Assembly: GCA_902608115.1 (NCBI GenBank)
Contig: CACLMT010000009.1
Span: forward strand, 1 to 54,198
From: an uncultured SAR86 cluster bacterium
GTDB lineage: Bacteria > Pseudomonadota > Gammaproteobacteria > Magnimaribacterales > D2472
Direction: 5' to 3'
DNA length: 54,198 nt
In this document: positions 3,131 through 45,739 of the stretch, piece after piece
Numbering within the stretch: the first letter of the stretch is position 1
How the letters are laid out: every line of letters begins with the position of its first letter
Made by a program: the position numbers and the translations under genes
The notes under the pieces: generated by a model
What the model was told of the DNA's origin: nothing
What the model saw: only the letters and a program-made list of their open reading frames with translations
Database searches by the model: none

Positions 3131-6100
3131 TTATAGCTTTTCAGAAATAGCATACCAAGCTGGAATATAAAATAAAGCAATAATGGCAGACCCTATAACT
3201 CCACCGGCCATTGCCCAAGCAAGAGGTTGAAAAAATATACTAGTTATAAGAAGTGGTAAAAAACCACCAATAGTAGTTGCAGACGTAGTAATAACATGGC
3301 GCGTTGATCGAATTACTACATCCACCAATCCTTCTTTATCTAGGGGAGAATTAGCATTAGCTTCCTTTATGTGAGAGAGAACTACAATAGAATCATTAAT
3401 CGATAAACCAGCCAAACCAATTGCACCCACTAAACCAATAAACCCAAAATTTGCCTGACCAATTGTAAGCCCCATGAATGCCAAACCGGTACACCAAAAT
3501 GCAACGCTTAAAATCAATCCAGCTTGTCTAAAAGAATTTAAAGCTGAAACTAGAGCAATAACAATAAGAATAAAAAATAAGATTACTGAGTTAAACATTT
3601 GGGATTGAGATCTAGCTCTTGATTCAGCTTCGCCACCAGTCTCTAATATATAACCTGGAGGGAGCTGATCTTCAAATACTTTTACCTTATCTTTAAGATA
3701 ATTTTCTGTATCCGAAGGCAATGAACCTGACCAAATCCAGGCCTTCACCTGATTTTGTCTTTTGCCTGCATCTCTTGAAACCATATTTGATTGAGTGGTA
3801 ACTTCAAAATCTCCATAACTTGAAGAATAATCAAAACCATCTTTGGCAGGAATAGATAAAAATTGTGTTGATTCAATTAGATCCTGGGAGAATCCCCTCA
3901 ATCTAATTGGCACTTCCTTATTTCCATCTAACATCATGCCTATAACTGCTCCCTCGCTTGCAATAGCCAATTCATTAATAAAAAATTCACCTGACACTGA
4001 ATTCATAACAAGATTTGGTTCATTAAATCTAAATTCAAGATTTGTTGCTGGAGTTGAGAGTTCGCTATTTGTTAAAGATACATCTGGAGCTCCTCTAATA
4101 ATTAACTCAAGTTTTTTACCTAATGCTCTTAGAATCGATATATCTGGTCCAATAATACTATATTCAATCGCTGCATTCACCGGTGGCCCTGAATCAAACT
4201 TATCAACAATGATTTTTATATCTGGATTATCACTTGTGATTTTTCTTGCAAACATTGGAAGAACTTCAATCATTTCTTGATAAGAATTAGCTATATAAAC
4301 ACCCTGAGCAATATTATTTTGTCCTGTCTTAGTTTCAGATCCTATAACGTTGTAAAGTAGATGAGGCAAACTCCTGCCCACAAACCAAAAATCACTCTGA
4401 ACAATCCCACTTTTGTTAATTGATTCTCTTAATTCATGAACCTTTTTCTCAGTTGTTGTAAGAGAAGAGTTTGGGGGTAATTCAATAAAAACCTTAAACA
4501 TATTCCTATCTAACTCAGGAAAAAAATCAGCTTTTAAAAATGGAAACATTAAAAAACCAAGCAATGGTAATATCATAGCTATCATGATGCCGCGCTTTGG
4601 AACTTCATAAGACCAGATAAGTAATGCTCTATATCTTTTTAAAAGTTTTTCATTTGAATAGCCTGTACCAGACAGCATTTCTTTATCAAAAAACTTAATA
4701 TTTTCCATGTAATTTAGAAAAACAGGCACGACATATAAAGCTAAAAATAAAGATGAGGTAATGGATAAAATGACTGTCTTAGCCATCCCGCCAACAAATT
4801 CTGAACTTGGGCCTTCTCCTGCAGCAATTGGAAAAAATGCTAAAGCAGTGGTTGCGGTTGCTGCAGAAAGTGGTATCCAGAGATGATGAAAACTTTCAAA
4901 TGAAGCTTCTCTTTGGGAAAATCCTAACCTCCGCCTGTATCGAAAATCTTCTACAACAATGATTGCATTATCTATCAATAAGCCTAGAGCAATAATAATT
5001 CCTGTCATGGATGTTTGATGAAGGGGAAGGTCTAATAACCTACAACCATACAGAACTAAAAAGATAGTTAATGGAATGACTGACCCAACAATTAAAGCCG
5101 ATCTAAATCCTAGAAGAAAATAGCTAATTGCAGTGACAATAAGAGTTGCAAAGAGAATACTAGAATATAAATTATTAAATTTCTGATTAAAATAATAGGA
5201 TTCGTCATAAATTTTATTAATTGAAATTTCAGGAGGAAGTTGAGATTTAAATTTATCAACTAATGTAGAAATTTCACCTGCATATAAATCAACTCTTTGA
5301 CCAAAAACTCCTCTTACATCTACTAAAACTGCTCTTTGCCCATTTAATAGAGTAATTGCTTCAGGGGGATCACGCGGGGTTTTTGTAACGCTTGCTATAT
5401 CTCCAATTCGTATAATTTCAAAATCATTAATTGCCTTGATTGGTAAATCTGCTACTTCAACAACGCTTGTAAGATTGTCTTTAGATTTAATTAACACCTC
5501 TTTTCCACCTTGGGTAATCTGTCCTATCGGTTTCTTTGTATCAAGCTGAGATAAAACCTTGGTTACTTCTTGAAAACTCAACCCAAGAGCAGAAAGTTTC
5601 GCATTATCTATTTCTATTAGAACTTCTTCATCTGCAGCGCCAAAAACAAAACTTCTATCTGATCCATCAATATATGCTAGGGTTTGTCTCAAATCTTCAG
5701 CTATTCGCGACAACATTATCAAAGGCATGTCTCCCTCGCCATTCCAGGTTAATGCATACATTAAAGTTGTTGGCGGGCCACTGCTCCTTACCATACGCGG
5801 TTTAACTCCTACAGGAAGGAGGAAGATTGATTCATCTAATTTATCTTGAACCTGAGACCATACTTGCTCAATTAACCTTGGAGAAACTTCAGATTTTAAT
5901 TCTATTATTGTAGAACCATATCCTTGAGAGGCAAAAGAATCTATTTCATCAACCTCATAGACTTCTCTAAGTTTAGCTTCCATAGGTTCTAAAACTTGAG
6001 TCTCTAATCTAGCTGGAGATGCCCCAGGGTAAACAGTTTGAATAACGGACCATCTCTGTGCTATTTCTGGATTCTCTTGCCTTGATACAGTTCCTAAGGC

Positions 6101-6181
6101 AAAAATTCCAGATAAAAAGATAAATATTAATAATAGAGCAAATACTCTTTGTCTCTGAAACAGGATTTTTAGTAACAGCAT
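3131..6181 (-). CDS. RND-type efflux pump, inner-membrane transporter subunit (AcrB/HAE family)
   Basis: The 1016-residue length and architecture match a full RND pump: an N-terminal membrane helix, a large periplasmic loop, a central membrane bundle beginning near SSILFATLIVTAISYFLLGF, a second periplasmic loop, and a C-terminal bundle. The TM4 motif reads GLLIDNAIIVVED, keeping the first relay aspartate but with Asn in place of the second. The TM10-like motif is GLSINDSIVV. This D-N/N-D pattern occurs in a branch of HAE pumps, so it is not evidence of inactivity. The adaptor gene ends 4 nt upstream. No outer-membrane channel gene is next to it; tolC at 44408 probably supplies it. Substrates cannot be told from sequence. 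Confidence 0.94.
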   Translation of the reverse strand: MLLLKILFQRQRVFALLLIFIFLSGIFALGTVSRQENPEIAQRWSVIQTVYPGASPARLETQVLEPMEAKLREVYEVDEIDSFASQGYGSTIIELKSEVSPRLIEQVWSQVQDKLDESIFLLPVGVKPRMVRSSGPPTTLMYALTWNGEGDMPLIMLSRIAEDLRQTLAYIDGSDRSFVFGAADEEVLIEIDNAKLSALGLSFQEVTKVLSQLDTKKPIGQITQGGKEVLIKSKDNLTSVVEVADLPIKAINDFEIIRIGDIASVTKTPRDPPEAITLLNGQRAVLVDVRGVFGQRVDLYAGEISTLVDKFKSQLPPEISINKIYDESYYFNQKFNNLYSSILFATLIVTAISYFLLGFRSALIVGSVIPLTIFLVLYGCRLLDLPLHQTSMTGIIIALGLLIDNAIIVVEDFRYRRRLGFSQREASFESFHHLWIPLSAATATTALAFFPIAAGEGPSSEFVGGMAKTVILSITSSLFLALYVVPVFLNYMENIKFFDKEMLSGTGYSNEKLLKRYRALLIWSYEVPKRGIMIAMILPLLGFLMFPFLKADFFPELDRNMFKVFIELPPNSSLTTTEKKVHELRESINKSGIVQSDFWFVGRSLPHLLYNVIGSETKTGQNNIAQGVYIANSYQEMIEVLPMFARKITSDNPDIKIIVDKFDSGPPVNAAIEYSIIGPDISILRALGKKLELIIRGAPDVSLTNSELSTPATNLEFRFNEPNLVMNSVSGEFFINELAIASEGAVIGMMLDGNKEVPIRLRGFSQDLIESTQFLSIPAKDGFDYSSSYGDFEVTTQSNMVSRDAGKRQNQVKAWIWSGSLPSDTENYLKDKVKVFEDQLPPGYILETGGEAESRARSQSQMFNSVILFFILIVIALVSALNSFRQAGLILSVAFWCTGLAFMGLTIGQANFGFIGLVGAIGLAGLSINDSIVVLSHIKEANANSPLDKEGLVDVVIRSTRHVITTSATTIGGFLPLLITSIFFQPLAWAMAGGVIGSAIIALFYIPAWYAISEKL

Positions 6182-6185
6182 AAAT

Positions 6186-7181
6186 CTAATTAGCTCTTAA
6201 GATTTCATTCTCTATTACCTTGGTGGCTCCCCCAGCAACTACCATGTCACCATTTTCAATGGTTCCGGTGATAAATGCGCTATCTTTCCCAGCATGAATC
6301 AATTCAACAATTTCTTTTGAAACTTGATACTGATTATTTGAATCCCTATTCAAGGTATATATATTCCATAAGCCTTGCGTTCCTTGTGATAATGCAGTTG
6401 ATGGGACCCAAGCACCTCGTTTATTAATTGTTTGTTTTAATTCAAGATAAGAAATCGATCCTGGATTGATAAATGAATCAAATTCAAAAATACACAATCT
6501 ATTGTCTGAGCCTTGGGCACTCATCTGTGCAAAGCGTTTAAATTTTGCAGGATATTGTTTTTTATTAATTAAAAAATTATATGAATCTCCGATATTCAAA
6601 TTCTCTATAGTATTTACTGGGATAGAAACATGGGCTTCAACACTTGTTGAGTCAATAATTTCTAAAATTGGAACTCCAGGGCTTACAACCGTACCGGAAT
6701 CTAAAAACCGATTCTGAATGAAGCCTGAGAAAGGTGCACGTATTTTTGTTTGCTCTAATTTAACTGTATAAAGATCAACTTGAGCTTGTGCAATCAAATA
6801 TTCTGAATTAGCTTTATCTAATTCTTGATTTGAAATAAAACCCTTTGCTTTTAAGTCCTTAAATCTAGTTAATGCTTGAGAAGCCAAATCAAACCTTGCC
6901 AATGATTGATTTAAATTTGCTTGCATTTCTGCTGGGTCTAAAAAAGCAAGAATTTGATTCTTTATAACTTGATCTCCAATATCAACAGTTACTTGAGAAA
7001 TCTTTCCCGGTATTTCAAATGCTAATTTTGAAAAATTAAGAGGTAATATTTTCCCAGGAAACCTCTGCATAGAATTATAAGAGGGCTGAATTTCAAGAGT
7101 TGCAATTTCTAGAGACGAATAAGCCCCATATAAATCTGATAAATAAAATGATAGAACTAAAAAAAATATCGATTTTTTCAT
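6186..7181 (-). CDS. RND efflux periplasmic adaptor (membrane fusion protein)
   Basis: The 331-residue protein opens with a signal peptide (MKKSIFFLVLSFYLSDLYGA). It then shows the adaptor pattern: a split lipoyl/barrel-sandwich domain (GKISQVTVDIGDQVIKNQIL and KLEQTKIRAPFSGFIQ), a short helical hairpin between them (about residues 85-135), a beta-barrel, and a membrane-proximal C-terminus. Adaptors of this kind bridge an RND pump to TolC. The gene is first in the pump operon. Its start is about 30 nt from two tandem operator copies shared with the divergent tetR-type gene, so repression by that regulator is likely. No lipobox is seen. Confidence 0.92.
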   Translation of the reverse strand: MKKSIFFLVLSFYLSDLYGAYSSLEIATLEIQPSYNSMQRFPGKILPLNFSKLAFEIPGKISQVTVDIGDQVIKNQILAFLDPAEMQANLNQSLARFDLASQALTRFKDLKAKGFISNQELDKANSEYLIAQAQVDLYTVKLEQTKIRAPFSGFIQNRFLDSGTVVSPGVPILEIIDSTSVEAHVSIPVNTIENLNIGDSYNFLINKKQYPAKFKRFAQMSAQGSDNRLCIFEFDSFINPGSISYLELKQTINKRGAWVPSTALSQGTQGLWNIYTLNRDSNNQYQVSKEIVELIHAGKDSAFITGTIENGDMVVAGGATKVIENEILRAN

Positions 7182-7210: not shown

Positions 7211-7229
7211 ATGTTAACAGTGTCAACAT
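7211..7229. promoter_or_regulatory. Operator copy 1 in the adaptor/TetR divergent promoter
   Basis: ATGTTAACAGTGTCAACAT is a near-perfect 19-bp inverted repeat (arms ATGTTxACA and TGTxAACAT around one central base, one mismatched pair). It is repeated identically 28 bp downstream. Read on the minus strand it contains TTGACA, a consensus -35 element, so a bound repressor would block the pump promoter. TetR-family regulators typically bind such palindromes between themselves and a divergent target. Confidence 0.8.
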
Positions 7230-7238
7230 ACAACAATA

Positions 7239-7257
7239 ATGTTAACAGTGTCAACAT
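7239..7257. promoter_or_regulatory. Operator copy 2 in the adaptor/TetR divergent promoter
   Basis: A second identical 19-bp copy of ATGTTAACAGTGTCAACAT lies 28 bp from the first and 10 nt before the preferred TetR start codon. On the minus strand its TTGACA is followed after 18 nt by TATGTT, a plausible pump promoter. The copies differ only in flanking bases. A related sequence occurs in the tolC promoter at 44381. Confidence 0.8.
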
Positions 7258-7267
7258 TTTTTATGAT

Positions 7268-7864
7268 ATGAAATATCACCACGGAGATCTTAAAGGAGCG
7301 CTTGTCAAAAGTGCTTGTATAGTTTGTGAGAAATCAGGCTATGAGAAATTAAGCTTAAGATCAATTGCGAAAGAGGCCAATGTCTCACAAACTGCTCCAT
7401 ATCGACACTTTAAAACAAAACAAGATTTATTAGCTGAAGTTGCCAAGTGTGGCTTTGAAGAGCTGAGACAAAATATGAAAAAATCTCTTCAGAAAAATAA
7501 AGACCTTAATGCGAAGGAGAAATTTATTGAAATGGGGATGGAGTATCTTAACTTTGGATTAAATAAACAAAAAACTTTCGATTTAATGAATCACGCTGAC
7601 CTCTACTTCCCTGATTTCCCTGAGTTAGAAAAAAGTGCAAATGCTACTTTTGCCTTATTGGTTGATGGAATGTTAAATCTTATGCCCAATCTTTCAGAAG
7701 ATGAGTTGAAATCTGAGTGCATTAAAAATTGGGCAATGATAACTGGGTTAGTCTCAATCTTAAGAAAGGAAACCGATGAGGCTTCAGAAACACCCGCAGG
7801 CATAGCAATTGATTTTGTTAAAAAAGATGTCAAAAAATTTCTAGAAACTGTTATATCTAGTTAG
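7268..7864 (+). CDS. TetR-family transcriptional repressor
   Basis: From the ATG at 7268 the product is 198 residues and begins MKYHHGDLKGALVKSACIV, the standard start of this TetR subgroup. The helix-turn-helix reads LSLRSIAKEANVSQTAPYRH with FKTKQDLLAEV after it. The C-terminal part (about 75-190) is the variable ligand-binding and dimer domain. An in-frame ATG at 7211 would add 19 residues but lies in the operator itself and gives a non-family extension, so I rejected it. The gene is divergent from the RND operon, which it probably represses along with itself. Its stop overlaps the end of the convergent DUF4399 gene by 4 nt. Confidence 0.92.
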   Translation: MKYHHGDLKGALVKSACIVCEKSGYEKLSLRSIAKEANVSQTAPYRHFKTKQDLLAEVAKCGFEELRQNMKKSLQKNKDLNAKEKFIEMGMEYLNFGLNKQKTFDLMNHADLYFPDFPELEKSANATFALLVDGMLNLMPNLSEDELKSECIKNWAMITGLVSILRKETDEASETPAGIAIDFVKKDVKKFLETVISS

Positions 7865-42575: not shown

Positions 42576-44255
<1,680 letters not shown>

Positions 44256-44259
44256 TTAA

Positions 44260-44275
44260 TTAAAGTGAACTTTAA
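44260..44275. promoter_or_regulatory. 16-bp palindrome just upstream of thiC
   Basis: TTAAAGTGAACTTTAA is a perfect palindrome (7-bp arms, 2-nt centre) ending 5 nt before the thiC start codon, where a ribosome site would be expected. It could be an operator or a small RNA hairpin controlling thiC translation. No second copy was noticed. Confidence 0.35.
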
Positions 44276-44352
44276 AATAATATTCTACTCTAACTAAATT
44301 GAAAGAAATGCATAAATTTTAGAGAATTTACCTATAAACTGAAATAATTTAG

Positions 44353-44382
44353 TTGACATTAGATAGTGAAAAGAGTTCTAAT
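44353..44382 (+). promoter_or_regulatory. tolC promoter
   Basis: A consensus -35 TTGACA (44353-44358) and -10 TCTAAT (44377-44382, five of six consensus bases) are separated by 18 nt. The tolC ATG lies 25 nt downstream. The -10 overlaps the first bases of the operator at 44381. Confidence 0.6.
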
Positions 44383-44399
44383 GTTAGCACTGTAAACAT
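44381..44399. promoter_or_regulatory. Operator copy 3 (tolC promoter), related to the TetR-site pair
   Basis: ATGTTAGCACTGTAAACAT is an inverted repeat of the same form as the two sites at 7211 and 7239. Its reverse complement, ATGTTTACAGTGCTAACAT, agrees with them at 16 of 19 positions. It overlaps the -10 and start region of the tolC promoter, the usual place for repression. The conserved core is ATGTTxACAGTGxxAACAT. Confidence 0.72.
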
Positions 44400-44407
44400 T
44401 ATATATT

Positions 44408-45739
44408 ATGAAATCAAAATATTTAATCGCTCTTCTCTTATTTGTAAGTGGCAACGTAGCATCAGATAGTTTGCTCGATATATATAATGATGCCCTAGAA
44501 AATGATCCCCAGTACAGATCTGCAGAATTTTCTTATCTATCTGGAAAAGAAATCAAAGTACAAGGGCGTGCTGCCCTGCTTCCAAATGTCACTCTTAGCG
44601 CTCAAACAAATTGGAATGAATACTATCAATTGGGAGAACTTCAAAATGAATACAATAATTTTAGTGCTGCGGCTCGAATAACCCAACCATTAATTAGGTT
44701 GGATAGTTGGTTTAAATATCGTCAATCAAAATTTTTAACAGATGCTGCTGAGGCAGATTTTGCATATTCTCAACAAACATTGATTGTTAGGACGGCTGAG
44801 CTTTATTTTGGAGTTTTAAGGGCAATAGATAATCTAAATGCTGCTCGATCTGAAGAAAGAGCTATCAAAAAACAGCTTGACCAAATTCACCAAAGATATG
44901 AAGTTGGTTTATCAGCTATTACGGAGGTTCAAGAAGCTCAACTTGCATATGATCTAAGTCTAGCGGCAAAAATTAGAAGCGAAGGAGCAGTTTATACTGC
45001 GAAAGAATCCCTCAATGCGTTGGTTGGAAGGGAAATAGTTTCTTTAAATGGTCTAGTAAATGATTTAAACGTTTCAAACCCAGTACCTGATTCTAAAGAA
45101 GAATGGACTAAAAAGGCTATTGAAAATAATTTTAGATTAAAGGCTGCAACCTTAAGAAAATTTGCATCCAAAAATAATGCTCGAAGCGTTGCCTCTGATC
45201 ATCTGCCGAAGATAGATATTGTTGGAACTCAAATTGAATCAGAGACAAACCAATATACCTTTGATGGAGTAAATACTGGGGGCTTATTTAATATCACTAT
45301 TCCAGATGAAACTCAGAGAGATACCTACAGTCTGCAACTTTCAATGCCAATCTTTCAAGGCGGAGCTGTTATTTCAAGAACAAAACAAGCATATGCAGAA
45401 TCAAATAAATCTTCTGAAGATGCGCTATTTACAGAAAGAAGTGTTATTCAAGATGTCAGAAGTCAATTTTCTAGTGTTGTTACATTAGTGGCAAACCTTA
45501 AAGCTCAGAAGCAAGCTGTAATATCTGCAACCAGTGCTCTAGAAGCTACTAAAGTAGGTTATGAAGTTGGAACACGAAATATTGTTGATCTTTTACAGGC
45601 TGAAAAAAATCTTTACAGCGCGGAGAAGGACTTATCCAATGCTAAATATGACTACTTAATAACAACCCTCCGCTTACATCTAGCTGCAGGTACTCTAAGC
45701 CCAGAGAATTTAATAGAAATTAATAACTTACTAAGTTAA
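44408..45739 (+). CDS. tolC: TolC-family outer-membrane efflux channel
   Basis: The 443-residue protein has a signal peptide (YLIALLLFVSGNVASDS) and the duplicated TolC layout: SLLDIYNDALENDPQYRSAE, a long helical segment, IHQRYEVGLSAITEVQEAQL in repeat one, and TKVGYEVGTRNIVDLLQAEK in repeat two. TolC trimers form the exit duct for RND and type I systems. It is unlinked to the pump genes at 3131-7181 but has the same operator in its promoter. mutM starts at the last base of its stop. Confidence 0.96.
   Translation: MKSKYLIALLLFVSGNVASDSLLDIYNDALENDPQYRSAEFSYLSGKEIKVQGRAALLPNVTLSAQTNWNEYYQLGELQNEYNNFSAAARITQPLIRLDSWFKYRQSKFLTDAAEADFAYSQQTLIVRTAELYFGVLRAIDNLNAARSEERAIKKQLDQIHQRYEVGLSAITEVQEAQLAYDLSLAAKIRSEGAVYTAKESLNALVGREIVSLNGLVNDLNVSNPVPDSKEEWTKKAIENNFRLKAATLRKFASKNNARSVASDHLPKIDIVGTQIESETNQYTFDGVNTGGLFNITIPDETQRDTYSLQLSMPIFQGGAVISRTKQAYAESNKSSEDALFTERSVIQDVRSQFSSVVTLVANLKAQKQAVISATSALEATKVGYEVGTRNIVDLLQAEKNLYSAEKDLSNAKYDYLITTLRLHLAAGTLSPENLIEINNLLS

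Follow-up and report, generated by a model that had tools for sequence, protein, structure and literature searches.

A predicted TetR-type regulon linking an RND efflux pump with a separate tolC gene in SAR86 bacteria

A TetR-family gene beside a pair of RND efflux genes in a SAR86 cluster genome very probably encodes a repressor that controls both this pump and a separate tolC gene about 37 kb away, with a gene for a diiron protein as a further member of the same predicted regulon. What has been observed is the sites that define the regulon, how rare and how conserved they are, and that they occur together with tetR. Members of SAR86 have small genomes; they are abundant and difficult to culture. 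The window, i.e. the whole 54,198-nucleotide stretch analysed here, is contig C9 of a 1.25 Mb genome in 37 contigs that is 78% complete (G000). Genomes in the comparison are labelled G000 to G091 and are grouped into families f1 to f4 and genera g1 to g19; the window's own genome belongs to family f1 and genus g1. The features concerned are listed below.

3131 to 6181, minus strand: RND permease, 1016 aa (PF00873, 379.6 bits, cut-off 28)
6186 to 7181, minus strand: RND periplasmic adaptor, 331 aa, divergent from tetR, start at 7181 (TIGR01730, 152.9, cut-off 94.9)
7211 to 7229, plus strand: operator 1, in the adaptor-tetR intergenic region, ATGTTAACAGTGTCAACAT; a tandem pair is found in 32 of 34 family tetR loci
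7225 to 7254, minus strand: promoter-like element toward the adaptor, TTGACA, 18 bases, TATGTT (1 found against a shuffle mean of 1.4, weak alone)
7239 to 7257, plus strand: operator 2, ATGTTAACAGTGTCAACAT, identical to operator 1 and 28 bases further on
7268 to 7864, plus strand: tetR, 198 aa, TetR_N helix-turn-helix, recognition helix VSQTAPYRHF (PF00440, 42.3 bits, cut-off 24)
44353 to 44382, plus strand: probable tolC promoter, read from the sequence as TTGACA (44353-44358), an 18-base spacer and TCTAAT (44377-44382)
44381 to 44399, plus strand: operator at tolC, ATGTTAGCACTGTAAACAT, scoring 27.5 bits with a matrix built without tolC sites
44408 to 45739, plus strand: tolC, outer membrane channel, 443 aa (PF02321, 192.3 bits; TIGR01844, 302.8, cut-off 225.15)

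The pump locus has the composition of a tripartite RND system. The adaptor and permease genes lie in tandem, and a TolC-family outer membrane channel (TIGR01844, 302.8 over 225.15) is encoded in the same genome. The palindromic operator at the regulator's own promoter is typical of a TetR-family repressor, and recurs as a tandem pair at 32 of 34 family loci, a count that is partly circular. The longest tetR reading frame opens at an ATG at 7211, inside operator 1, but relatives align from the ATG at 7268. The promoter-like element on the adaptor side has its first hexamer within operator 2, and its second overlaps operator 1. The protein was also compared with the named NCBIfam models for AcrR (26.5 of 271 bits) and MtrR (36.1 of 280) and, falling below both curated cut-offs, was assigned to neither.

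The original prediction had placed at tolC a copy of twin sites starting at 7211 and 7239, agreeing at 16 of 19 positions. All three sites are present and this agreement is upheld, with 3 of 19 positions differing on either strand. Allowing up to three mismatches, the window contains six strand-matches (three palindromic places, each on both strands), compared with a mean of 0.01 and a maximum of 1 in 100 dinucleotide shuffles. A weight matrix was built from 27 hand-picked tetR/RND intergenic sites of family f1, two of them from the window and none from tolC; counts of tetR operators made with this matrix are therefore partly circular, but those at tolC and at the AurF-like and PAN-like genes described below are not. 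In a matrix scan of the 54 kb the best position after the three operators scores 5.4 bits, compared with 27.5 for the tolC site. A 20 Mb Markov simulation produced no window reaching 20 bits, and ~0.13 windows of at least 18 bits per 1.25 Mb. Matrix scores of 8 or above over the fetched loci, training sites included, fall into two groups, one below 16 bits and one at 20 bits or above. A search with a loosened IUPAC pattern and three mismatches allowed was barely above chance (six matches in the window against a shuffle mean of 2.09, with three shuffles reaching six; 9 and 15 matches in the genome against 3 and 6 for the control), and so the exact strict pattern and the matrix were adopted. The strict pattern misses some real sites, such as ATGTTTACAGTGTCAACTT before tolC in G037.

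The operator at tolC ends 8 bases before the start codon at 44408. It had been predicted to lie over the -10 element; it overlaps only the last two bases of the -10 and covers the start region. An automatic promoter scan of the window did not list the promoter at 44353-44382, because that scan requires A at position 2 of the second hexamer. The promoter is called here because relatives have TTGACA at the same distance: it lies 28 bases (27 in one case) before the tolC operator at 20 of 20 loci in genus g1, and at 28 and 25 bases in G033 and G032 of other genera. At the remaining 7 of the 29 site-bearing loci there is no TTGACA in the stretch searched. In g1 the -10 (TCTAAT or TTTAAT) thus falls at the edge of the operator, where a bound dimer would cover the start region.

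When the tolC upstream regions are anchored on the operator, which favours it by construction, its mean identity is 0.95 against 0.72 and 0.75 for the flanks (20 g1 loci), and 0.89 against 0.56 and 0.56 (nine loci of other genera). Because of this bias a free MAFFT alignment of the 20 g1 upstream regions was added, in which the operator columns have a mean identity of 0.95 compared with 0.64 for the other 134, and no 19-column window is more conserved than the operator, though neighbouring windows tie with it. Coincidental resemblance, or inherited sequence without function, is accordingly very improbable as an explanation. Close relatives do share DNA, and counts over related genomes are not independent. 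However, the operator is the best-conserved stretch upstream of tolC within the genus and persists at nine loci in other genera, and the matrix and simulation make a chance origin very unlikely. A second upstream stretch at about 44311-44329 (offset 53) is nearly as conserved within the genus (0.945 in the free alignment). In the stretch 42576-44407 of the window thiC is divergent from tolC; no Rfam family reached its cut-off anywhere in the window, hence there is no TPP riboswitch match.

The operator is kept while the promoter around it varies. By eye, in g2-g6 it precedes a different -10-like stretch rather than lying over the -10 and start as in g1. The same upstream placement is seen in g12 and G034, and would permit an activating or dual role, in which tolC would be turned on or merely trimmed and not induced together with the pump. 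This role seems unlikely, as the operator in g1 covers the -10 end and the start region, a repressor's position, and TetR proteins beside divergent pumps are mostly repressors. Repression by the pump-side TetR remains the favoured reading of the tolC site.

Within family f1 the strict pattern gives at least 127 forward and at least 132 reverse matches in the 36 genomes, compared with 2 and 4 for the reversed-pattern control, and matches occur in at least 35 of these genomes. tetR was found in 34 of the 36 (the G031 orthologue at 34% identity), with tandem operators in 32; G032 has a single operator and G023 cannot be read because its upstream sequence is N. tolC was found in 30, and 29 of these, spanning nine of ten genera, have the site upstream. 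The single f1 locus lacking it among the 30 is that of G031 (best score 7.3 bits), where the tandem operators at tetR are kept. Only the regulator's own promoter is a more constant target in the family than tolC. In a tree of TolC proteins (25 of the 30 f1 loci and five outgroups, one of which, G037, carries the tolC site) G031 falls within the site-bearing f1 group, although its row is long and its placement unsure. tetR and tolC share a contig in 20 of the 25 f1 genomes compared, 31.9-37.1 kb apart and in the same orientation, and the neighbourhood is therefore old. In public sequence the TetR protein finds nine loci, the closest from 'Proteobacteria bacterium UBA7420' (62% identity), followed by two from SAR86 cluster bacteria (47%); tandem operators precede tetR in all three.

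Outside f1, in 24 order-level genomes, the strict pattern is no commoner than its control (forward matches, 2 against 4; reverse, 2 against 3), and G037 alone has matches in both orientations, located at its tetR promoter. Confinement of the tolC site to f1 was nevertheless ruled out, as the matrix found the site before tolC in G037 that the strict pattern had missed. In family f3 tetR relatives (E <= 1e-12) occur in 9 of 40 genomes, namely 5 of 7 in g12 and 4 of 8 in g19, with none in g15 and g16. tolC was sought in 30 of the 40 and found in 28, of which 27 upstream regions were read (one fragment lacks the start). All seven g12 regions carry ATGTTTACAGTGTCAACTT (23.5 bits), but the matrix finds no site in seven from g19, eight from g15 or five from g16; the 13 regions without a site in g15 and g16 belong to genera that also lack this tetR. 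The four f2 regions examined (G036, G039, G048 and G057) are likewise without the site.

The two f3 genera that do have tetR show opposite arrangements. In g19 tetR has tandem operators, the adaptor and pump adjoin it in 4 of 4 cases, and the recognition helix is the usual one, yet the tolC site is absent. The five g12 genomes with tetR have no relative of the window's adaptor or pump next to that gene (~1.5 kb examined in four, ~9 kb in G037), and tetR has its own operator in G037 only, lacking it in the other four; what this genus conserves is the site at tolC. Control of the pump and control of tolC therefore occur separately. In G037 tetR and tolC are 572 kb apart, and any control there must be in trans. 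By eye, the stretches around the operator in g12 and in g2-g6 look alike. This favours a single ancient origin of the tolC site, later lost in g19 and G031, although the site may instead have been gained more than once. The original prediction had described the site as an unusual local rewiring of tolC. Instead it is family-wide and old, and the comparison with relatives, offered as a check of that prediction, gave a divided answer: the site is kept in f1 and g12, but is missing in G031, in G048 and at all seven g19 loci read, four of those genomes having tetR. These lineages provide natural presences and absences with which the predicted regulon can be tested. It is conceivable, if rather doubtful, that TolC is the central or oldest target of a TetR sensor adjusting how much of the main outer membrane export channel a streamlined SAR86 cell has, and that the pump, the diiron protein and a small secreted protein are lineage-specific additions. 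The living example in that case would be g12, because its tetR has no adjoining pump and mostly no operator of its own while the tolC site is present in all seven genomes.

The recognition helix VSQTAPYRHF is exact in 40 of 44 TetR proteins, with SQSAP and SQAAP variants in two more. The two real departures, VSATAIYRHY in G031 and VSTTAFYRHF in G048, are both in genomes without the tolC site. In G048, where no pump lies within the 5 kb fetched around the tetR relative, the tetR promoter (L171:2249-2297) contains a tandem of palindromes, ATGTTAACTTAGTCAACAT and ATGTTTACTAAGATAACAT, whose core differs from the usual one; the altered helix and altered core together suggest a possible switch of specificity. 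The absence of the tolC site where the helix is altered, with the changed core in G048, ties this TetR to the motif, on two cases only, and g19 lacks the site despite its usual helix. These observations bear on whether a different TetR paralogue, rather than the pump-side protein, binds at tolC. Weak paralogues (about 19-33% identity) exist in many of the 60 genomes searched, and three genomes have the tolC site with no detected tetR orthologue (G011, G060 and G061, which are 59, 70 and 93% complete), the most complete of them, G061, counting in favour of a paralogue. However, weak paralogues are also present in the order-level genomes G040, G043, G046, G049 and G055, which lack this tetR and in which the strict pattern is no commoner than in the control. 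The motif moreover forms a tandem pair at the promoter of this very tetR (32 of 34 family loci), and it is changes in this protein's helix that accompany absence of the tolC site. Binding by a paralogue is thus improbable, and the pump-side TetR is retained as the regulator of tolC.

The search for further copies across the genome, also proposed with the original prediction, returned by the strict pattern one further place in 1.25 Mb (78% complete), and that place is a plausible target. With the search pattern at up to one mismatch four places are found, the three in the window and C1:191919-191937; two to three mismatches give further places, but many in the control too. Among the matches listed for the strict pattern in this genome there are 4 forward, compared with 0 for the reversed-pattern control. 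The additional site is perfectly palindromic and lies 24 bases upstream of the start of a gene for a 371-aa AurF/R2-like diiron protein (C1:190782-191894), which matches the AurF family (PF11583, 40.1 bits, cut-off 29.6) and falls below the cut-off of R2-like oxidase models. cobT is next to this gene, on the other side of the palindrome. The AurF-like target is present at 20 of the 30 f1 loci examined and absent in G003, G004, G007, G016, G017, G021, G026, G031, G032 and G033. G032 has most of the AurF-like gene twice, one copy directly after the other (C1:1156616 and C1:1157735).

Relatives add further candidates. A rhodanese gene has as its neighbour a gene for a small secreted protein of PAN-like type in 24 of 36 f1 genomes (25 loci); the latter gene was not found in G000. 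Of the 25 loci, 19 have a site of at least 12 bits, that of G010 scoring only 15.8. The PAN-like loci (L105-L120 and L125-L149) often have one or two operators, and those of g3 and g4 have genes for a patatin-like phospholipase and a GMC oxidoreductase nearby. In G023 and G027 an operator also accompanies a second RND adaptor. A match at C3:82655 (three mismatches, 7.3 bits), close to the second RND pump of G000, was set aside as chance. The predicted regulon is thus larger than the single tripartite pump originally envisaged, taking in the AurF/R2-like protein, the PAN-like protein in relatives and, in two genomes, the second RND adaptor.

That one regulator serves the pump and the separate tolC, as first proposed, is supported as the best reading by the matching sites and their presence at 29 of 30 f1 tolC loci. 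The 198-residue TetR would be an autoregulated repressor whose dimers bind 19-bp palindromes of the form ATGTnnnCAnTGnnnACAT. The tandem operators between tetR and the adaptor gene would shut two divergent promoters, the single operator over the start region would shut tolC, and the single operator before the AurF/R2-like gene would shut that gene. On binding a ligand TetR would be released, inducing the pump and the diiron protein together with TolC, the only full channel of its type that was found. We infer binding, repression and release alike: repression from the position of the sites over promoters, and release by analogy with the TetR family.

Local repressors of the AcrR, MtrR and TtgR type have tetR divergent from the adaptor and permease genes with the operator between, and are known chiefly as regulators of the pump operon beside them. 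Unlike these, the SAR86 operator also occurs at a gene for a diiron protein and at a tolC gene elsewhere in the genome. In Escherichia coli the AraC-type global activators MarA, SoxS and Rob induce acrAB and the unlinked tolC together. The predicted co-induction in SAR86 is alike, but the proposed regulator is the pump's own TetR neighbour and not an AraC-type activator. Among the open-licence papers listed there is no report of this regulon, nor of tolC in SAR86; the two that contain both terms name SAR86 once each. A functional precedent is AtrR of Vibrio cholerae (VCA0767), according to PMC10805010 a TetR-family negative regulator acting on an RND pump and an unlinked tolC, whose deletion raises vexRAB and tolC more than tenfold. 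The model given there has AtrR regulating tolC directly; the words operator, binding, EMSA and motif are absent from that main text (PMC10805010). The vexRAB operon as described there comes with a regulator of its own, VexR, AtrR being a distinct and global one (PMC10805010), whereas in SAR86 the TetR neighbouring the pump has matching sites at both pump and tolC. The predicted regulon, if real, would illustrate clearly how a conserved repressor gains and loses targets.

In each of 23 f1 genomes searched TolC is the sole protein with two OEP stretches. A weak additional single-stretch OEP-like match occurs in 13 of the 23, nine of them above the cut-off and mostly in a frame of ~400 aa, and tolC may accordingly not encode the only channel. 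The match in G000 (C8:15079-15285) lies below the cut-off within a frame of 398 aa; other genomes have counterparts, and it is possibly a distant second channel. Because no other full channel was found, the window's pump is predicted to assemble with the window's TolC. Two RND permeases were found in each of ten f1 genomes searched (fragments counted as one). With one full channel and two permeases per genome, repression of tolC, unless partial, would probably affect most of the export that runs through TolC. If so, one chemical sensor would switch the whole export capacity and not just one pump. The second RND permease gene of G010 (C2:33440-36494) looks broken, with stop codons in one piece, and the tolC match in G061 (C27:6044-7390), of which the upstream region alone was used, has one in-frame stop.
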